Below, piece by piece: positions 9,032 through 22,557 of a stretch of 46,754 nucleotides of DNA (the first letter of the stretch is position 1; the number at the start of each line of letters is the position of its first letter). The notes under the pieces were generated by a model. The model ran no database searches, was not told the origin of the DNA, and saw nothing but the letters and a program-made list of their open reading frames with translations. The position numbers and the translations under genes are program-made. This DNA comes from a virus. The DNA lies in IMG/VR virus record IMGVR_UViG_3300049856_000130, positions 1 to 46,754 of that record; one strand, given 5' to 3'.

Positions 9032-10990
9032 TTAGATCTCCTGAGTTATCGTACCGTTTTGCCCCGAAACTATGCCAAAATAACCTGGATTCCAGGTCTT
9101 AAAAGGGAACATTTGAAAAGACCATATTTTTATGACTATCTTTAAACCGTCTGGATCATATCCGATATCCCTAATCATACCTGGGACATCGTTTAGAATC
9201 ACGCTTCCGATCGAAACATTTAGCTTAACAAAATTGCCAATGTCTAAAAGCATGGCCCGCCACGTCAGATTTATGTCAAAAATTTCGATTGTCCCACTTG
9301 CAAGGCGCACTATTTCTATGAGTTGAGAAGCAACCACATTTGATTGATATAGGTTCGGGAAGACTATCTTCTTAGAGATTTTAAGGCCCGCCATTTGCGT
9401 TATGGCGTCATCATTTCTCATGATGGAAGTAGCCCTAGAATTTTCGTTAACTATGGGTAAAAAGTTAAACGCCGCTTGCGCCCTATTGAAGTTATTTTTT
9501 TCATCGATTCTCGCCCTTAGCGAGCCTTCTACGACATCCCAGTTTTTAACATTATAGGTAGTCAATTCGTCCCAGTCTTCGAAGTGAAGACTGTTAAGCT
9601 TTAGCTTCAAATCCCTATCGATAAATGCTTCTAACCTGACTTGCTCAAGCAGGGATAAAACGTATGTCATAGCTGGGGTAGATTCGTTGAGCCAAATTCT
9701 TGATTTAAACGTGCTTATAGATGACTGCGCTGGAGTTGCTTTGTCTCGATATGTTTCCCAATTGAGATCAAAGTCCCCGTAAATTAAACCGCCGTATGTA
9801 ATGATTATATCGTGAGCTTGCCATACTATATTATTATCATACCCAATGTTTTTCCCTCTAACTTGGACAAAAAATTCATCGCCAGAATCAAAAGCGTAAG
9901 CAATTAAAACCCCTGCGCCATCGTTCATCCACAAAGCGCCCTGTTTGACTTCAAATATGTTCTTATTGCCGTTGACATTCGTTACCTCTGCGCTAGGAAC
10001 CAAGCTATAAACTTCGCTCCTTCTCACATAAACTTTGGACGTATCGAAAAAATAATTGGCGTTTTCTGAGATCAAAAAAGATAGGTTTTTTCTTGGCTCG
10101 CCCGTGAATGGTTTGAATTGGTGTGTACCAGTTTGAGCTCCTGAAGAAGTAATAACAGCGCCACCTGGAGACAGGGATATCTCGAAGGAATCTAACAAAG
10201 GATTTCTAACGTAATAGGCTGTTGAAATAGCAAGAGGAGAAGGAAGAGATCCAGTTGTCACAAGCTCTATCTTGCCTCCCTCATCAAGAGCATGAGCCAC
10301 GCAAGATAGAGTTGATCCAGATATGGTTACCTCCTTCTCCTTGTACGCTACAAATGGATCTGATCCATTCGTACAATAAGCGGGGATAGCAGCATAAAAT
10401 GGTTCTAATTCTACGGTCCAATCTCCGTAAATTAAGGGTATTATCTTTCCTAAGTTTTTCTGCTCGCACTTAGGAAAGCTATCGTAGGTTATCGCCGTGT
10501 TCGGGAATTTCGCGTTTATTCTGTCGTAGTTGTCTCGCGCCACAATGATAATTGAGTTGATGGAGCGTTGAAACCCTCCAACGGGAGTAATTGTGCCCTT
10601 AAATATCGTTGTATACGTTCCGGCTTTCTCTGCCAAACCCACTTTAACCACAACCTGCTTATTAACCCATCCCCCATAGTTATTCCCGCTTTGTAGTATG
10701 TTGTTAAACCGTCCGTCTACGTTGCTTAATTCTAGTGTTAATGTACTAAATTGGAGGTCATTCGACAACCATTCTCCAACGGTTCTCCCTATCGTCGGGA
10801 ACACTAAAAGTGCTTCGTAGAAAGTCCCATCAACATACTTGTTTCGATCGCTTGCGTAGATAGTCCCAGTAGGGCTTTCGATCTCGCAAACCATCTCTAT
10901 TTTACATTCTAAATTGTCATGACAGAAATCTAACAATGCTTGGTCAAGCACGTTAGATGTTAGGTATGGTCTTCGGTTACTACTGCTCAT
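9032..10990 (-). CDS. tail tip / baseplate hub-like protein
   Basis: This 652-residue protein overlaps the upstream tail gene by one base. The first 150 residues are beta-rich (EIESPTGTIYASDRNKYVDG, LTLELSNVDGRFNNIL). A central IIPLIYGDWTVELEP segment is seen in phage tail-tip proteins, and a C-terminal part carries MIRDIGYDPDGLKIVIKIW. Such proteins form the hub at the distal tail end that closes the tube and carries fibres. No peptidase or lysozyme motif is visible. The assignment rests on position after the tape measure and on composition. Confidence 0.65.
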   Translation of the reverse strand: MSSSNRRPYLTSNVLDQALLDFCHDNLECKIEMVCEIESPTGTIYASDRNKYVDGTFYEALLVFPTIGRTVGEWLSNDLQFSTLTLELSNVDGRFNNILQSGNNYGGWVNKQVVVKVGLAEKAGTYTTIFKGTITPVGGFQRSINSIIIVARDNYDRINAKFPNTAITYDSFPKCEQKNLGKIIPLIYGDWTVELEPFYAAIPAYCTNGSDPFVAYKEKEVTISGSTLSCVAHALDEGGKIELVTTGSLPSPLAISTAYYVRNPLLDSFEISLSPGGAVITSSGAQTGTHQFKPFTGEPRKNLSFLISENANYFFDTSKVYVRRSEVYSLVPSAEVTNVNGNKNIFEVKQGALWMNDGAGVLIAYAFDSGDEFFVQVRGKNIGYDNNIVWQAHDIIITYGGLIYGDFDLNWETYRDKATPAQSSISTFKSRIWLNESTPAMTYVLSLLEQVRLEAFIDRDLKLKLNSLHFEDWDELTTYNVKNWDVVEGSLRARIDEKNNFNRAQAAFNFLPIVNENSRATSIMRNDDAITQMAGLKISKKIVFPNLYQSNVVASQLIEIVRLASGTIEIFDINLTWRAMLLDIGNFVKLNVSIGSVILNDVPGMIRDIGYDPDGLKIVIKIWSFQMFPFKTWNPGYFGIVSGQNGTITQEI

Positions 10991-12429
10991 TATAAACTTT
11001 CATCAATTTCTACAGCAAGCGTTACTATATCGGCGGCATCCCCTCTATTCTCATGCTCTTCTTCAGGGATATCTACCAACTTTCCAAAAACTCCGAATCT
11101 TTTTGGGTCTTGTGGGTCTGGAAGCCATAGACATTTTAAACTAGTTCTGGCTGTTTCAAAAACATTTATTAAGCTGTCGAAGTTCCCTTTACGGTAATCT
11201 AAACTGTTAAAATTAACAACGATGGATCTCTTTAAGGCTCTATCGTTCGACACATTTGTAAACCCTTCTGTCTTTACTTTCGAGGAAAAGTGACGCATTT
11301 TTCTACGGATTCGATCAACAATATCCTCTCCCTGAAAAATAATTGAGTTCCCAAAAATAATCGTTCCCACCTGCAAAAATCCTTCTGGATTTGTCGGATC
11401 GCTTATCGTCAATCGCCAGTATCGGTATTGTGTTGTTGGGAATGTTGGGGATATGTAATAGCTGTTAATACTAGTCGCCTCGATCGGGAGAGTAATGCCC
11501 ACGCTGGCAAAGGTAGGAGAATTGCTACCTTCGAATGTAACCACGGCGCTGGAGGACCAGTTATGATTAAGGAACGCGAAGGTATCAGGAGCGACTCCTT
11601 GAACTAGTTGGGTGTCACAAACCAATGTAGCCGATAATGAGCTGTTTGATCTCCATACATATTCTACAATATCGTTGTTTACATTATTGACAGAAAAATC
11701 ACCTGCTAGAGTTGATGAAGCCGTCCAGTTTAAACCATTGGTTCCACGGCTAGGAAACTCAGAAAGGATCCGTAGCTTTGTGGTATTGTAGAGAACAAAC
11801 CTGATCTGAGATCCTAAGTTCAAAGCTCTTAGCAAGTTTATCTCGGCTCCAATAGCCTTAACAGCTTCTATGACTCGCTCAACTTCTACGCCGTTCTGAG
11901 TGTACGTCTTGATAGCCCGATCCATCTCGACGCCCGTATATCGCTTAGTCACAATCTTTCGATCAATCTCTAAACCGATATGGGCACAAATCCCATCAAC
12001 CAAATATCTTTTTGTCAGGTAGTCTTCAGACAGATAGCCCTTTTCTCGGCAATGCCAGGAAGAGATATATTTTTCCCTGGTTATTTCGACTCCAGAGAAT
12101 TGAGTGTCTCCTAATGATCTTTCAACTTCCACGCCCGAATATCGTGCTGTGGATATCTTCCTTTCGATTTCCAAGCCAATTTGGTCCATAGATTCTATGG
12201 TTCTTTCGACTTCCGTTCCTAGAAAATCATCTCCAGGATTAGACCGATCGACCTCGATCCCTGAATAAACCATTTCAATTAATCTTCTATCGATCTCCAG
12301 CCCCGAGGCTAGATCATCCTGAATGACCCGCTTAACCTCCGTTCCATAGTGGTCTCGGCATCTCCCCGACATATAGCTATAAGTTAAATATGGTTCTTCG
12401 AGATATCCGAAATAGGCTGGATTTGTCAT
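10990..12429 (-). CDS. distal tail-like protein with modular 14-residue repeats
   Basis: This 479-residue protein starts in an ATGA overlap with the tape measure stop. Residues 8-207 are repetitive. A 21-residue element with GYL-x-E-x-YLT (residues 8 and 131) is followed by tandem 14-residue units starting G-x-E-hydrophobic-D/E-R (glycines at 29, 43, 57, 71, 85, 99, 113 and 152, 166, 180, 194). Residues about 215-360 look like a discoidin/galactose-binding-type beta sandwich (TTQYRYWRLTISDP). The C-terminus is alpha/beta (KCLWLPDPQDPKRFGVFGKL). Its place directly after the tape measure is that of a distal tail protein. The repeats are not part of the usual family. Confidence 0.6.
   Translation of the reverse strand: MTNPAYFGYLEEPYLTYSYMSGRCRDHYGTEVKRVIQDDLASGLEIDRRLIEMVYSGIEVDRSNPGDDFLGTEVERTIESMDQIGLEIERKISTARYSGVEVERSLGDTQFSGVEITREKYISSWHCREKGYLSEDYLTKRYLVDGICAHIGLEIDRKIVTKRYTGVEMDRAIKTYTQNGVEVERVIEAVKAIGAEINLLRALNLGSQIRFVLYNTTKLRILSEFPSRGTNGLNWTASSTLAGDFSVNNVNNDIVEYVWRSNSSLSATLVCDTQLVQGVAPDTFAFLNHNWSSSAVVTFEGSNSPTFASVGITLPIEATSINSYYISPTFPTTQYRYWRLTISDPTNPEGFLQVGTIIFGNSIIFQGEDIVDRIRRKMRHFSSKVKTEGFTNVSNDRALKRSIVVNFNSLDYRKGNFDSLINVFETARTSLKCLWLPDPQDPKRFGVFGKLVDIPEEEHENRGDAADIVTLAVEIDESL
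11809..12408 (-). repeat. coding repeat array: 42-base units encoding GxE(I/V)(D/E)R peptides
   Basis: Within the 479-residue tail protein, eleven units of 14 residues follow two copies of a 21-residue cysteine-containing element. Seven units follow the first element and four follow the second. The glycine spacing is exactly 14 within each series. Unit cores such as GLEIDR, GIEVDR, GTEVER, GLEIER, GVEVER and GVEMDR are easily seen in the translation. Confidence 0.85.
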
Positions 12430-15400
12430 AGGTTTCTAACTCCGTTGGCGTACACGATAGTTTGGCCATCTGCGCTACTTCTTCGCAATTGGTCCTTGAT
12501 CGTTGGCATTAGCTTATTCTTGATAAAGGTTTCGTCGATCTGCTGGGTAGAATTTATGGTTAGTTTAATCTCTATGTTTTGAGTGTTGTTGGCAGGAGCT
12601 TGGCCTTTGTTGAGTGATGACAGGTTATTCATTCCCAAGGATGCCGCCGCGCTTTTGTTGATAACAAACTCGCCACCTTTTAGCATGGTGGGGACATCTC
12701 CAGACCCTCCTACTAAACCGCCTTCATGAAATTTGTTGGCCTCAAGCATCTTCCAAAACATGTCTAGAACTTTGCCGTAAACTGTTCCTTTCATCTGGTC
12801 CCATAACTTGGCAAGTAGCTGGCTAGGATCTAGGTTTTCTGCTTGATTTCCTAATGTGTCCCTTGCTCCTCGCAAATCTTTGCCAAGGTCTTTAGCTCCA
12901 TAAGCATATCCACTAGGTTTAATATCTCCATCTAAGATCGCTTGGACCAAGGCTGCAATGGTTGGATCATTCATTTTTGATCTTGGGATAACGGCCTCAC
13001 CTGCGCTGAGCAATGCCACAATTCTATCATTCATCTTGCTATCACCGGGAACAGAAGCTTGACCAGGGATCAAACCGCCCTTAGCGAAGTTTAAGAAGGG
13101 GATATCGATACCAAGCTTTTTCTCTACATCACCCTGGCCTTTAGCTGAATCTGTATTAAACATTTTCCCAAAAAGATTAGCTGGATTAATTGCATCTAGA
13201 GCATCCCCAACTAGCTTTCCAAGACCACTTAAACCTTTTTTCAAACCCTCCCAAATTGCGCCGCCTAACCCCATAAAGAAGTCCCAAAGCCCAGTTAATG
13301 CGGTTTTTAAACCCTCGAATATTTTCCCGCCGATTTCTAAATAGATCGAAACTAGGTCTTGCAATGCTTTAAATATGCTTTGGAATATGTCTGCAACACC
13401 TTTAAGGATGGTTTCTCCTGCTTTAAATACAGAGCCAAAGATATCGGCGACACCACCAAGAGCATCTCCTATTGCCTTGAAAGCTGCTTGAAATATGCCA
13501 ACAACACCTTCAAAAATAGTCTGAGCAGTCTTAAAGACTTCTCCAAATACTTCCGTAACGTGCTGCAGTATCGCCCCACCGATTTTAAATACAGCTTCGA
13601 AGATATTGATCTTGCCCGTAAAGAGCTCCATCAAAGTGTCCCAGATATTCTTAACCATCTTCCAAGCTGATTCAAAGATGCCCATCATTCCATCCCAGAT
13701 AGCTTGAACAGCTCCCCAAGCGGCACTAAAGACAACCATTAAAACATCCCAAACCGATGACAGTACATTTATCATTGCCGACCAGATCGCCTCGATTACA
13801 CCCCAAACCGCCGTTAATGCCCCGAGCATGGAGTTCCAAACGGTTTTAAGGACATTGACAATTGGCATAAATATATTGTCCCATACCCATCGCCATACCG
13901 CTGTAATGCCGTCAAGAATTGGTTTTAGGAATGTGTCATAAACAAATCTCCAAACAGCCGTAAGACCATCAATAAGAGGCTTGATAAACGTATCGTAAAT
14001 AAATCGCCAAGCTGCAATTAAACCATTGGTTAAATCTTTAAAAAGTTTGTCTAGGGTTGACTTTCCATCCTTTAAGCCACCTCCTACGTTATTCATCGCC
14101 TTGGCACCCACTTTCATTGCGCCTTCGAGATCCATCACAGCAAAGAGTTTGCTAGCCTCTCCTGTAAGCTTCTTCCCAAAATCCCTTAGGCCCAAGCCTA
14201 GGGCTTTGGTATCAATTGGAACCTTGAAGCCCTTACCAGAAAGTAGATTTTTCATTACGTTAACTAATAGCATTCCTAGTGCTATCCCAATTTTAGGAAG
14301 ATCTTTGATTGTAAATTCTATTATTTTATCAATTAATTTAGGGATTCCCTCAATGAGTCCAGCAATTAAAGCGGGAATGATATCGGGTAGCTTCTCAATC
14401 AACTTGATAAGAAGGTCGGGAATTTTATCGAGTAGATCGACCAAGGCTAGTGGGATCTCAGCAACAAACTTGATTACTGAGTCGATTATACTCGAAACCA
14501 TCTTTATGACGTTGGGAATAAAGTTCTTAATGAAATTGATTACACCATTGAAAAGATTAGCAATTCCCGCTGCAATCCTGTTAGGAAGATCAGTCAATGA
14601 ATTAAATATATTCGCAATCTTTTCGAGCAAACCAGGGATAAAATCAATCAATGCTTGAACGGCATCAGCCACAGCACCAACTCCAGCCATGGCTCCCATT
14701 GCCGACATTCCAGCAATCTCTCCAGCTCCTTGCACTGCCTGAGTTATTGACCTACCAACCTCTTCACCCATTTTGGTTCCAGCTTCAAATGCTTTGGGAG
14801 GAGCTTTTTTTGCTGCTTGCGCTGCTTCTTCTTTTGCAAGCTTTCGCCTTTCATTCAATTGCTTGATAATATTTTCTTGTTCTTTGGTTGGTGGCCCTAT
14901 TTTTGTAAGTAATTGCTTTATTTCCAGCTCTTTTTGTAGAGCGTCAACTATTTTTAGCTGTCTATCTAGTTGTAATTTGATGCCATCGAGCGTTAAAGCT
15001 TCAGCAATTTTTAAATTAGTGAATATGTCTTCGTTTTCTTTCTTAAGATCTTTAGCTTGATCGGTCATTATTTTGTAGATTTTAGCTTTAGATCCTAGGT
15101 CTACTAACTCCCTACCTTGTGCAATTAGATCTTTATTCGCTTGGGATAGATGACCTTGCAGTTTTAATAGTTTTTCTTGGTCATCTAATTCACTATTTCT
15201 AAGTTGAACTCTTTCGTATTCCTGGAGAATGTCAGATTGTACGTTAACCGTAAATTCTTTCTGAACATCAGCTATTTTTCGTCTTAATGTTTTGGTTTCT
15301 TCTAGCCTTTGGATAACTTCTTCTTGAATTTTTATTTCTTTTTCTTTATTAACAGAATCAATTTGCTTCTGAATTAGCATTTGTTCATCTGAACGAAAGC

Positions 15401-18095
15401 CGTTAATCTTGAGCAAGCCAGCGGATACTTGCTCTATTTGCTTAACTTTAGCTGCTGTTTCAAGCTTTACAGCTTCAACTATTCTTCCGCTTTGCCTTAA
15501 TTCATTGAGTTTAAGCGCAAAAACATCGGTCTCTATTTTTGAAACCGTATCGAATCGAAGTTTTTCCGCTTCTATCCTGGCTGTAGCTGCTTCTTTCTCA
15601 GCTCCAGCTAATTTCTCCGCTGTCTCTTTTGGCGAAGCCTTAAGATCGAAAACTTTAGCAAGATTCGCCTTAGAATCCTCTATTTTTTTAGAAGCTTTTT
15701 CAAATTCGTTAGCAAAAAGCTTTTGTTTTTCAGCAGCTTCGCTGAACTCGCTATTTATTTCATCAGCTAATCCTCTGACTTTTTTCCTAAATTCTCCCGT
15801 TACTTTCAATACATCAACCTGATTCGTACCAAAATCTTTCGTTGCTGTTGATGCCCCTGCTAGAAATCCCATCGCATTATCTAGCTGGTTTGAATAGTCA
15901 TCTATTGATTTTCCTAGAGCATAAAATTTCTTGGTTTGATCTTCTATTAGTAAGTCAAAAGCGAGTATATCTTCATCATCTGCAAAAAGTTTTTTAAATT
16001 CAGCATAAATTATTGAAAGAGCTACAAGCCCTTGCGCTAACCTGAGTATTTCTATGCTCGCAAATTTTACCGCCGTGGTGAATATTCGCTCGATAACACC
16101 AGCACTTTGTTTGAGATTATTTCCAGTTTCTTCAGCAGCAACAGCGGAAGATCTAAAATTGTCTGCTAAATCTTCAAAAACCATGTTAATTTCTGGCACT
16201 GCTACCGCTAATTGTTCAATTGCCTTAGAAACAACGAAAAAGGCAGCAGCCCAAGGAACAATCCTTTTAGTTATGACTAATATAATTGAAGAGAGAGCTA
16301 CAGAAGTTCCGAACAATGACAACACGTAAGTGTTTAAAAGCTGAATAACTCCTGCTAAAGCTAAAGCACCAACCGTGAATTTTAAAAGCTGTCCAATAAC
16401 AATGAAGGTTACACCAACGAAGTCTTTTAATTTTCCTATTGTAACCAAAATAATATCGGGTAAATCTGCCCACCAAGTTGCAAATTTAATCGATAAAGCA
16501 AGGTATTTTCTAGTAGCATCGCCTTGCTCACCAATTTTTATGTTAATTCTTTCAAGTGTTTTCTCATAAACAGCGTTTGCCCCTGCAATCGTATCGGTTT
16601 GATCGCTTGCTGCTCCTAGAATTGGGGTAACTTGCTTCATTAAAGCTTCATATTTAGCCATAGATATCTGATTTTCATCTAACTGCTCTATAGATAAACC
16701 AATGGATTTTGCATAATCAGTCTGTGCTAGCGTTGTATTTGTTAGGTTTATACCGTTTTGTGTCACCAAAACGCTAGAATCACTCAGCGCCTTTATTAAT
16801 TCTTTCGTGGTTCCTTCAAGATCTTTATTACCAACGGCTGCTAGATCTTGAGCAGCGCCAAATAGTTTTAATGATTGTTGAAATCCTAGCCCTAGATTGT
16901 GAGCTCCCGCAATAATTGACTTAATAGAGTTCGCTATTTCGTTACGGCTAAACTCTGTATTCATAACAGTTTCGTCTAAAATGTCATTCCATTGCTTAAA
17001 TCCACCTGTAGCCTTTTCTCCAAACTCTTTGACGTAACCACCAACAACCTTGGTAAAAGTTTTCATGGAATATTCAAAATCTTGAAAAGCCTTATTAGCT
17101 TTTTCCATGTCCGTTAAAAACTTTTCACCAATGGATATTAATAGATCTCCAATTGCGAATATAGCGAGCCTTACCGCTACCCCTAAGCCTCCTGATATTA
17201 CGCCAGCAACTTTTAATATGGTTCCAGCAAATTTTCCTGCTGCTGTTTCTGTATCAACAAAATATTGACCAAGTAAAATAAAAGCTGGAGATAAAATACC
17301 AAGGGCTGTTGTAACGGTGATAATAGATGTAGGAAGAGACTTTGAAGCAAAACCAGCAAATCCTGTACCTGCCTTAAATACAACCCCTATAACATCCGCA
17401 ATAGGCTTAAATGCCTTTATGAAATCGTAGGCATATTTACCTACAATCCCAGTCGCCGCGACTGCTAGGGCAAATCCGGCTTGCTCTAGAGCCATCATAA
17501 AACCTATTTGCGCTTCGCTAGCGTTTTTTATCGTTTGTACATATCTGTCTATTTTTTTTGAAATTGAATCAAAAACTGAATTGTATAAATTTTGCAACTT
17601 ACCTAAATATGATTCACTATCTTTAACCATTACTTGCATTGATTCATTAGCAGTCTTGCCAATATCTTGCTGTTTATCTGTAGCGCCAGAGCTGACTTCT
17701 TGCTTTATAACAGGCAAACTTATTGGCTTATTTGCTTTTTCAATAGATTTTGATATTTCATCATTCAAAATCTTATAATCGTTAGTAAGGGATCCAACGG
17801 CTTTTGAGTATACATCGTAACTTTTCGTTAAATTTTCGGTATCAATCGATAAAACTGCTGTAGTTTTCAGATAGGCCAGGTCTTTTTCTATGTCTTTAAC
17901 CATAGATTGATAGGCTGATTTTTGTTCATCGGTATTTTTAACAGCGTTATCAGTCCATGAATTCATCGTTTTTTCCGATGAATCCATGGATTTTTCCAAA
18001 TTATTTATCTGATCGACTACGGTTTTTATATCAGACTTCCAACTTGCTGATATTTTTGACTCGATCTCGATTAAAAGCTTATCTGTTACCGCCAC
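12426..18095 (-). CDS. tail tape measure protein
   Basis: This protein of about 1,889 residues sets tail length and is threaded inside the tail tube. It has a helical N-terminus with coiled coils, several hydrophobic segments, and a long charged coiled-coil region (about 780-1150). A membrane-active series of Trp/Ile-rich amphipathic repeats follows (VIEAIWSAMINVLSSVW, AVQAIWDGMMGIFESAW). The C-terminus is typical, with FAKGGLIPGQ, EAVIPRSKM, EGGLVGGSG and GGEFVINKSAA. The start is taken as GTG at 18095 because GGGAGGGG lies just upstream. An ATG-like start at 18137 would add 14 residues and overlap the chaperone gene more. At about 1.5 angstrom per residue the tail would be near 280 nm. No peptidoglycan hydrolase domain is seen. 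Confidence 0.92.
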   Translation of the reverse strand: MAVTDKLLIEIESKISASWKSDIKTVVDQINNLEKSMDSSEKTMNSWTDNAVKNTDEQKSAYQSMVKDIEKDLAYLKTTAVLSIDTENLTKSYDVYSKAVGSLTNDYKILNDEISKSIEKANKPISLPVIKQEVSSGATDKQQDIGKTANESMQVMVKDSESYLGKLQNLYNSVFDSISKKIDRYVQTIKNASEAQIGFMMALEQAGFALAVAATGIVGKYAYDFIKAFKPIADVIGVVFKAGTGFAGFASKSLPTSIITVTTALGILSPAFILLGQYFVDTETAAGKFAGTILKVAGVISGGLGVAVRLAIFAIGDLLISIGEKFLTDMEKANKAFQDFEYSMKTFTKVVGGYVKEFGEKATGGFKQWNDILDETVMNTEFSRNEIANSIKSIIAGAHNLGLGFQQSLKLFGAAQDLAAVGNKDLEGTTKELIKALSDSSVLVTQNGINLTNTTLAQTDYAKSIGLSIEQLDENQISMAKYEALMKQVTPILGAASDQTDTIAGANAVYEKTLERINIKIGEQGDATRKYLALSIKFATWWADLPDIILVTIGKLKDFVGVTFIVIGQLLKFTVGALALAGVIQLLNTYVLSLFGTSVALSSIILVITKRIVPWAAAFFVVSKAIEQLAVAVPEINMVFEDLADNFRSSAVAAEETGNNLKQSAGVIERIFTTAVKFASIEILRLAQGLVALSIIYAEFKKLFADDEDILAFDLLIEDQTKKFYALGKSIDDYSNQLDNAMGFLAGASTATKDFGTNQVDVLKVTGEFRKKVRGLADEINSEFSEAAEKQKLFANEFEKASKKIEDSKANLAKVFDLKASPKETAEKLAGAEKEAATARIEAEKLRFDTVSKIETDVFALKLNELRQSGRIVEAVKLETAAKVKQIEQVSAGLLKINGFRSDEQMLIQKQIDSVNKEKEIKIQEEVIQRLEETKTLRRKIADVQKEFTVNVQSDILQEYERVQLRNSELDDQEKLLKLQGHLSQANKDLIAQGRELVDLGSKAKIYKIMTDQAKDLKKENEDIFTNLKIAEALTLDGIKLQLDRQLKIVDALQKELEIKQLLTKIGPPTKEQENIIKQLNERRKLAKEEAAQAAKKAPPKAFEAGTKMGEEVGRSITQAVQGAGEIAGMSAMGAMAGVGAVADAVQALIDFIPGLLEKIANIFNSLTDLPNRIAAGIANLFNGVINFIKNFIPNVIKMVSSIIDSVIKFVAEIPLALVDLLDKIPDLLIKLIEKLPDIIPALIAGLIEGIPKLIDKIIEFTIKDLPKIGIALGMLLVNVMKNLLSGKGFKVPIDTKALGLGLRDFGKKLTGEASKLFAVMDLEGAMKVGAKAMNNVGGGLKDGKSTLDKLFKDLTNGLIAAWRFIYDTFIKPLIDGLTAVWRFVYDTFLKPILDGITAVWRWVWDNIFMPIVNVLKTVWNSMLGALTAVWGVIEAIWSAMINVLSSVWDVLMVVFSAAWGAVQAIWDGMMGIFESAWKMVKNIWDTLMELFTGKINIFEAVFKIGGAILQHVTEVFGEVFKTAQTIFEGVVGIFQAAFKAIGDALGGVADIFGSVFKAGETILKGVADIFQSIFKALQDLVSIYLEIGGKIFEGLKTALTGLWDFFMGLGGAIWEGLKKGLSGLGKLVGDALDAINPANLFGKMFNTDSAKGQGDVEKKLGIDIPFLNFAKGGLIPGQASVPGDSKMNDRIVALLSAGEAVIPRSKMNDPTIAALVQAILDGDIKPSGYAYGAKDLGKDLRGARDTLGNQAENLDPSQLLAKLWDQMKGTVYGKVLDMFWKMLEANKFHEGGLVGGSGDVPTMLKGGEFVINKSAAASLGMNNLSSLNKGQAPANNTQNIEIKLTINSTQQIDETFIKNKLMPTIKDQLRRSSADGQTIVYANGVRNL

Positions 18096-18507
18096 TTTTA
18101 GCCCCTCCCTTTGCTCCCGACCCATCCCCAAGAACACTCTTTGCCCTGCTTACAAACTGAGCTTGCTTATATGACTGAATAAACCAAGAAATATTATCAA
18201 TCCACCATGACGGCTGGTCAACCATCCCGCCTTCCAGGTAGCGCCAGTCTCCAGACTCCGCCGCAAGAGACATGAGCCTATAGAGTCTAGTATACTCGGG
18301 ATCCCATGTCGCTTTGCCAGGACAGAAGCCATATTTCTCACCACCTTTGTTTATCTCTATAGGCCATATTATGCCATCATCAGCTGTGAAATCCTCCCGA
18401 TCTTCTGCACACCGCCTTATATCTTTGGTTCTCTGCGGGCACTCTTGGCAAATAAAATTCCGACCACCAGCTTTAAGGGCTGCATGGTCGGCTTGGGTGA
18501 GCTCCAT
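18079..18507 (-). CDS. tail assembly chaperone, T-like downstream frame (expressed by -1 frameshift)
   Basis: This 142-residue frame has a Cys cluster (FICQECPQ, RRCAEDRED, YGFCPGK) that may bind zinc, a Trp-rich middle, and a Gly/Lys-rich tail overlapping the tape measure start. It lies between the G-like gene and the tape measure, the standard location of the second chaperone product. It is in the -1 frame relative to the upstream gene. The open frame continues back from its ATG through LVAL to the A8 slippery run without a stop. A G-T fusion of about 303 residues can therefore form. It may also start independently at ATG 18507. Confidence 0.75.
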   Translation of the reverse strand: MELTQADHAALKAGGRNFICQECPQRTKDIRRCAEDREDFTADDGIIWPIEINKGGEKYGFCPGKATWDPEYTRLYRLMSLAAESGDWRYLEGGMVDQPSWWIDNISWFIQSYKQAQFVSRAKSVLGDGSGAKGGAKSGGNR

Positions 18508-21875: not shown

Positions 21876-22103
21876 TTATTTTGTCTCCAGAGCTACTTTT
21901 TCTTTTGTGTCAAAAACTTGTGCAAAAGAACCATGATATTTCGCCATAATGATATACCCGATTTCATCGGTAACTTCGGCCACGGATCCAAGATTCCACT
22001 TGCCGATATATTTCTTCTTTGGTTCTTCTTCACAGCCGTACTCTACCATAACAACTATTCCATCAGTATCGCCGCTAAGTTTTTTCGTTAGCTTGAGTTT
22101 CAT
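21876..22103 (-). CDS. small protein of unknown function in head-tail module
   Basis: This 75-residue protein begins MKLKLTKKLSGDTDGIVVMVEYG and appears to be a small beta barrel or SH3-like fold with alternating charged and hydrophobic residues. The ATG is preceded by AAGGAA. The gene overlaps the end of the upstream permuted-papain-like gene by 29 bases and abuts the connector gene. It may be a minor head or connector component; no family is recognised. Confidence 0.65.
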   Translation of the reverse strand: MKLKLTKKLSGDTDGIVVMVEYGCEEEPKKKYIGKWNLGSVAEVTDEIGYIIMAKYHGSFAQVFDTKEKVALETK

Positions 22104-22557
22104 CTTGCAATTCCTTTATGAGTTTTTCTAATTCTACTAATCCAATTGAACTATTGGTTTTACCCAGGATAGCTCTTGTCACAAACTCTGTGCAAATAAA
22201 ATAGTTACGATTTTGCCAGATATTTTCCTGTTTTTTAGAGAAGAATCCTAGCTTTCGTAATCCAAGAAATATTAATGCAAACCAATCGTATGAAATACCG
22301 ATATAAAGAGAGAGCAATCCTAAAAAATAAGACTGCTCATCTCCTTCCACTTCCACTTCATAAGTTTTTATGACGTTATATTTTTTTTGGAATTGTTTAA
22401 TATGACTAAGCTCAACTCCTGAATGTGTTGAGTGAGCCACTACGCTACAATTTCCAAAATATCTAGAAGAAATTGCAACATGGGAATAAGGTCCTCCATC
22501 AATCGATGCTATCAATTGAGATCCGATGTTTTTCCCCTTGCAAAATATGACGATCAT
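22075..22557 (-). CDS. permuted NlpC/P60-like (YiiX/LRAT-type) papain-fold protein
   Basis: This 160-residue protein has the circularly permuted papain-fold motifs in the diagnostic order. A His comes in GGPYSHVAIS (His26) and, about 95 residues later, a Cys in FICTEFVTRAI (Cys122). YiiX/YebB/LRAT-like proteins use this His...Cys order as amidases, peptidases or acyltransferases. A partly hydrophobic stretch (about 79-103) could touch membrane. It starts in an ATGA overlap with the upstream virion gene, inside the head-tail module. It may be a virion enzyme that acts on the cell wall or lipids during entry. That role is inference. Confidence 0.6.
   Translation of the reverse strand: MIVIFCKGKNIGSQLIASIDGGPYSHVAISSRYFGNCSVVAHSTHSGVELSHIKQFQKKYNVIKTYEVEVEGDEQSYFLGLLSLYIGISYDWFALIFLGLRKLGFFSKKQENIWQNRNYFICTEFVTRAILGKTNSSIGLVELEKLIKELQDETQANEKT

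Follow-up and report, generated by a model that had tools for sequence, protein, structure and literature searches.

A protein of 479 residues, encoded on the minus strand at 10990..12429 of the uncultured virus record IMGVR_UViG_3300049856_000130 (46.8 kb, all 46,754 nucleotides of which were analysed and are called the window here), carries an N-terminal array of short strand-turn repeats that varies in length between relatives and, in the run nearest the C-terminal domains, comes in counts of 0, 3 or 6 units. It is a real, modular and decorated protein in the gene slot of the siphophage distal tail protein (Dit), and it is the three-unit step that merits closer attention. Three units, 42–45 residues together, appear to form the building block, because the counts in the second array are 0, 3 and 6, similarity between units rises at a lag of three and one relative holds a 132-bp tandem duplication equal to three units. 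A first-pass annotation had taken the single unit as the building block; the array is indeed modular, but the grouping by three had been missed. Our best explanation, that a Dit-type protein of the tail tip bears N-terminal arms of beta strands whose length would change by three-unit blocks, is tentative and falls slightly short of an even call.

Architecture of the repeat protein

The glycine-spaced 14-residue pattern and the two GYLxExYLT headers of the first-pass annotation were confirmed. Motifs of the form G-x-E-hydrophobic stand at residues 29, 43, 57, 71, 85, 99, 113, 152, 166, 180 and 194, giving nine pairs spaced by exactly 14; among 100,000 shuffles of residues 1–200, 99,864 had no such pair and 136 had one. 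The headers read GYLEEPYLT at residue 8 and GYLSEDYLT at residue 131. The count of eleven units holds as a count of places, but the place at 113 is a conserved cap and that at 194 a half unit, and a last GSQIRF at residue 206 had been overlooked.

From the N terminus, on the minus strand throughout, the protein comprises header 1 (residues 8–20, GYLEEPYLTYSYM; 12370..12408), in which Tyr-Leu recurs at 5-residue steps; array 1, with six 14-residue units in two blocks of three (residues 29–112; 12094..12345); the cap (residues 113–130, GVEITREKYISSWHCREK; 12040..12093), which ends in WHC and neighbouring residues right before header 2 (residues 131–143; 12001..12039); array 2, one block of three 14-residue units (residues 152–193; 11851..11976); and a 12-residue half unit (194–205) followed by a terminal GSQIRFVLYN (206–215) that runs into the next domain (11785..11850 for both). 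Two C-terminal domains follow, at residues 214–365 (11335..11790) and 366–479 (10993..11334). Tandem Repeats Finder found no tandem repeat in the array DNA of the window, which argues that these units are old. Position 3 is Glu in all eleven window units but Gln in about 80% of units across the family; four other members (L028, L032, L034 and L065) also lean to Glu there.

Profile-guided scans of viral contigs yielded 61 loci, 51 with the architecture of the repeat family and ten matching in the C-terminal part only. Seven near-duplicates were dropped (L017, L029, L039, L042, L049, L050 and L068), and the remaining 44 near relatives, the window protein and five new members from a header-pattern scan make up the 50 compared members, all from uncultured phages. 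Each has one or two headers, six having a single one (L063, L064, L066, L067, L069 and L084); array 1 could be counted in 40, the 5′ part being incomplete in L037, L059, L060 and L087.

Across these members a header consists of aromatic-Leu pairs at 5-residue steps, usually YLxxPYLxxPYL, and in nearly all of them precedes the first unit by 8 residues (exceptions: 10 before array 1 in L041, 9 before array 2 in L044 and 0–10 in single-header members). Units are 14 residues long in 275 of 469 cases and 15 in the other 194, with the consensus G-x-Q/E-h-x-R-x-I, hydrophobic residues at positions 14, 2, 4 and 8, Gln or Glu at position 3 in nearly all, and then a polar loop in which D, K, S, N and P are frequent. 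Two-header proteins close array 1 with a cap that often carries Cys and that precedes header 2 in 40 of 40 of them, whereas array 2 closes with the 12-residue half unit and a last GxQ strand leading into a conserved YN motif; the 12-residue gap turned up in most members by free search and was then fixed for the final segmentation.

Unit counts and the step of three

Comparison among relatives upholds the earlier suggestion that the array varies in number. Array 2, taken from header 2 to the half unit, has 0 units in 13 members, 3 in 27 and 6 in 4, accounting for all 44 with a second header, and the six single-header members have 0 (three), 3 (two) or 10 (L064). Independently of any segmentation, the distance from header 2, or the sole header, to YN is 28–30, 70–75 or 112–117 residues in 48 of 50, with L069 (20) and L064 (177) outside these classes. 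A quick tree built from the C-terminal domains, no more than moderately supported (stars on 13 of 47 inner branches), requires 11 changes of array-2 count, ten of them multiples of three; by our own arithmetic, with residue classes taken as equally likely, at least ten of 11 has a probability of 1.3e-4. The four members with six units lie in four separate parts of this tree.

A period of three also appears within the arrays. In 45 arrays of at least six units, units three apart resemble each other more than expected (z 5.6 by BLOSUM and 6.2 by identity; z 6.0 in 27 nonredundant arrays), while similarity at lags 1 and 2 is near 0. With units numbered backwards from the cap, the share that are 15 residues long is 0.69, 0.58, 0.15, 0.73, 0.42 and 0.27 for units 1–6 and 0.52, 0.60, 0.36, 0.50, 0.62 and 0.20 for units 7–12, or 0.62, 0.55 and 0.24 by phase (z 13.7, 26 arrays); composition effects are smaller, and the same test of unit length is weak in array 2 (z 2.9). 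A 132-bp tandem duplication at 99% identity, equal to three units, is found in L016, which has twelve units before the cap against nine in L057, a relative with C-terminal domains 86% identical. Ongoing homogenisation of units was considered and is not general, the closest unit lying in the same protein for 120 units, in another for 189 and tied for 112 (n = 421).

The repeat array is an add-on, not the protein core, because nine complete distant relatives consist of the C-terminal domains alone and L066, L067 and L069 have one header and no full unit. Relatives without repeats, which the first-pass annotation had held would speak against its reading, thus exist in part. The array is also the fastest-changing of the three protein parts compared: over the 28 pairs among eight close relatives with equal unit counts, non-synonymous divergence (dN) spans 0.065–0.567 in array 1, 0.012–0.100 in the domain at 214–365 and 0.008–0.140 in the last domain, and in all 28 pairs array 1 exceeds the former domain by 2.4 to 11.9 times. 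Positive selection cannot be claimed, because for most pairs synonymous divergence (dS) is either saturated or undefined, and dN/dS stays below 1 wherever it has a value.

C-terminal domains and gene position

Two AlphaFold2 monomer models, one built on an alignment of 17 sequences and the other on one of 21 that keeps the repeats in register, resolve residues 214–479 well. Residues 214–365 are confidently modelled as a beta-sandwich of the F5/8C or CBM32 type (VIA-align against 4zxe_C: Z 13.6, root-mean-square deviation 2.3, 130 residues aligned, 12% identity), with 8–18% identity to such sandwiches among the matches listed; Pfam F5_F8_type_C also appears, below cut-off, in L075, L076 and L077. 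The model of residues 366–479 comprises a long hairpin (370–385 and 393–411), a helix and strands, faintly reminiscent of tail-tube or Dit-ring domains: Foldseek returned 9jlf_E at an expectation value (E) of 2.2e-4 and a template-modelling (TM) score by target of 0.34, with tail-tube and head-to-tail chains at E 2e-4 to 2e-3 and TM by target of about 0.34, and these low TM scores make the ring-like reading weak. None of the 50 VIA-align matches listed was a tail-tube or Dit structure, all being taken by the sandwich domain, and a PDB sequence-profile search gave no convincing relative for the full protein or its C-terminal domain.

The gene lies directly after that of a 1903-residue tape-measure protein (12426..18137, minus; best E 1.2e-27 to PHROGs tape-measure families), a position that bears out the tail-tip assignment of the first-pass annotation. 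It is followed by the gene of a 652-residue protein (9032..10990, minus), a conserved neighbour in the hub/Tal slot; gene order is the sole basis for reading it as a hub, because its sequence profile has no convincing PDB relative. Every near-family locus long enough to include both neighbours shows the same order of tape measure, repeat protein and 652-residue gene. Passages of PMC7291167 place the Dit gene after the tape measure, and Tal next, in most siphophages, which makes this the Dit slot, with the hub identity of the following gene presumed. Other window proteins match terminase, portal, head-maturation protease, head-tail adaptor, neck and tail-terminator families, and none of the window proteins scanned matches a sheath family.

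Weighing the explanations

Under the preferred explanation, the protein would be the distal-tail protein of a siphovirus-type phage, its C-terminal half a putative tail-tip ring piece with a carbohydrate-module-like sandwich, and its N-terminal part an added arm of 14- or 15-residue strand-turn units in blocks of three. Each Tyr-Leu header would open a run of units, the last half unit would join the sandwich domain, and runs would grow or shrink by whole blocks, at least in array 2. Each block may be one structural repeat of three strands, probably pairing with other chains, a pairing made probable because monomer models fail. Several adjustable copies of the arm could radiate from the tail tip and touch the cell surface or hold receptor-binding proteins; the folding into three-strand blocks, the pairing between chains and the outward direction are what we infer from the pattern.

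Several observations weigh against this explanation. Array 1 keeps the step less well, with 6 units in seven members, 7 in one, 8 in 15, 9 in eight, 11 in four, 12 in four and 15 in one (n = 40), that is 3k in 20, 3k−1 in 19 and 3k+1 in one, and just 9 of its 20 inferred changes are steps of three. With its ten units, L064 (5440–6873) is the one clear exception to threes beside the C-terminal domain. L104 has 45-bp tandem copies of one unit, so single-unit duplication also happens, and units six apart show no raised similarity, so duplication history may account for part of the lag-3 signal. The tail-tube-like domain is supported by weak fold matches. In both AlphaFold2 models residues 1–211 have predicted local distance difference test (pLDDT) scores below 50 (22–42 in blocks of ten), a failure compatible with a fold formed between chains, with a disordered tether and with too thin an alignment. 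In favour of the explanation, the sequence itself has strong beta-strand periodicity, with a hydrophobicity z over 503 segments of 23.7 at 170 degrees (beta strand) against 2.6 at 100 degrees, a value inflated because the first pass of the segmentation preferred G/A (or R/T/P) at position 1, Q/E at 3 and a hydrophobic residue at 4 and 8; the peak at 180 degrees in the window array alone is unaffected. Of the regular structure that the first-pass annotation had proposed to predict, the periodicity is thus present and the modelled fold absent, and its fibre, spring or adhesion stem can at most be inferred because the monomer models gave the array no structure.

The same low pLDDT over the array, in both models, would suit a flexible, largely unfolded spacer or tether between header and tail-tip domains, its length loosely selected and its block steps arising by recombination between old three-unit duplications. 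Fast amino-acid change in the array and the triplet tandem duplication of L016 point the same way, yet an unfolded tether does not sit easily with the alternating hydrophobic pattern, the near-constant Gln/Glu at position 3, the holding of unit length at 14 or 15, its phase dependence across unrelated members or a dN/dS below 1 where defined, and we consider it unlikely. A further reading makes the array a monomeric beta-solenoid stem, in which each coil is either a three-sided turn made of one three-unit block or a single 14- or 15-residue unit. Such a stem would account for the three-unit periodicity in count, similarity and length, and the Gln conserved at one position of the strand could form a stacked ladder. 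AlphaFold2 should reach such a monomer fold, however, and gave no such model, and some 44 residues, with strands of nine, is not a familiar size for a three-sided coil; we judge this improbable.

We rate as equally improbable a reading in which the array would be an internal or assembly part that lines or clamps the tail-tip channel, tape measure or hub, its length matching that of its partners. The gene does stand between those of the tape measure and the hub slot, and according to passages of PMC7291167 these two products come together in the tail tip of other siphophages. The array is nevertheless absent from relatives in the equivalent slot, it changes fastest of the three regions, and the length of the repeat region is uncorrelated with that of the tape-measure open reading frame (ORF; Spearman 0.05, p 0.78, n = 28), a result for which a role as a ruler was also rejected.

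Among known systems, repetitive fibre shafts include the triple beta-spiral (15-residue repeats in a homotrimeric shaft), the triple-stranded beta-helix and the beta-prism. The units resemble these in being short beta repeats with a conserved Gly and alternating hydrophobics, and family units are 14 residues (275 of 469) or 15 (194 of 469) where the triple beta-spiral repeats every 15. A homotrimer of equivalent units should need no counts in threes; either, therefore, the block itself is the structural repeat, or part of the pattern stems from past triplet duplication. No sequence match to the array was found in the PDB. Residues 214–365 are modelled with the fold of F5/8C, CBM32 and discoidin-like domains, here in a phage tail gene cluster. 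Dit-type proteins are regarded as the conserved core of siphophage tail tips. Passages of PMC7291167 describe evolved Dit proteins with a CBM inserted in the C-terminal galectin domain, and a p2 Dit whose 'arm' holds receptor-binding proteins. The window protein shares with them the slot after the tape measure and a CBM-like sandwich beside a putative ring-like domain, but its sandwich is predicted N-terminal to that domain rather than inserted in a galectin domain, and its arm would be an N-terminal repeat array of variable length.

That the family represents an undescribed beta-repeat arm on a Dit-type protein, with three-strand blocks added or removed whole, its reach tuned stepwise and its exposed face changing fast, is possible rather than probable; no title or abstract opening in the literature searched mentions such an array. 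If it were so, the family would supply a graded set from nature (0, 3 or 6 units in array 2; 6 to 15 in array 1) for relating arm length and sequence to host range, and the block of about 44 residues would be a small repeat with a fold beyond the monomer models tried here (alignments of at most 21 rows).

Relatives and further observations

The protein matches phrog_8610 (E 4.5e-12, residues 236–442), a family of phage proteins of about 270 residues and unknown function. The profile (270 positions) corresponds to the C-terminal 266 residues alone, to which the window protein adds some 210 N-terminal residues with headers and units. All 17 members of one alignment (A2) match it, as do repeat-less relatives. 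The ten loci matching in the C-terminal part only (L074–L083, identity 24–36%) include nine ORFs of 248–290 codons without repeats, and L082 is cut at its 5′ end; the upstream ORF of repeat-less relatives matches tape-measure families in seven of seven tested.

No relative turned up in two scans of bacterial and archaeal genomes. Among named phages, searches at E up to 1 gave no match to the window protein, to L002 or to the C-terminal part of L043. EBPR siphovirus 2 gp71 is the closest relative found there, a repeat-less protein of 264 residues, reached with L075 (E 4e-4) and, as sole match, with L066 (E 0.03); L011, at E up to 10, gave weak matches to it and to two Aeromonas phage tail proteins. 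One of these two, from Aeromonas phage 13AC503A (L023, 2404–6870), carries about twenty C-terminal 14-residue copies of a different motif (APYGLTAGYLPDLV), equal in period, and was judged unrelated. The header as a free-standing module was likewise rejected: a DNA pattern scan gave 24 stretches, eight of them short chance frames and 16 in family contigs, among which were the five new members (L084, L087, L092, L099 and L104).

In L104, 54-bp tandem repeats at 1477–2085 lie upstream of the repeat-protein gene, where the tape-measure gene of the family lies, and the header region has a 15-bp repeat encoding YLEGP. In the 652-residue neighbour, a segment at about 214–300 is not shared by the whole family, some members lacking it or having another in its place (the match splits into 1–214 and about 297–651 in 6 of 12 records searched). 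This segment is similar to portions of tail proteins from Rhizobium, Sinorhizobium and Microbacterium phages. At 22075–22557 of the window, amid head and connector genes, a 160-residue protein matches an enoyl-CoA hydratase-like PHROG (E 3e-12), an odd place for it.

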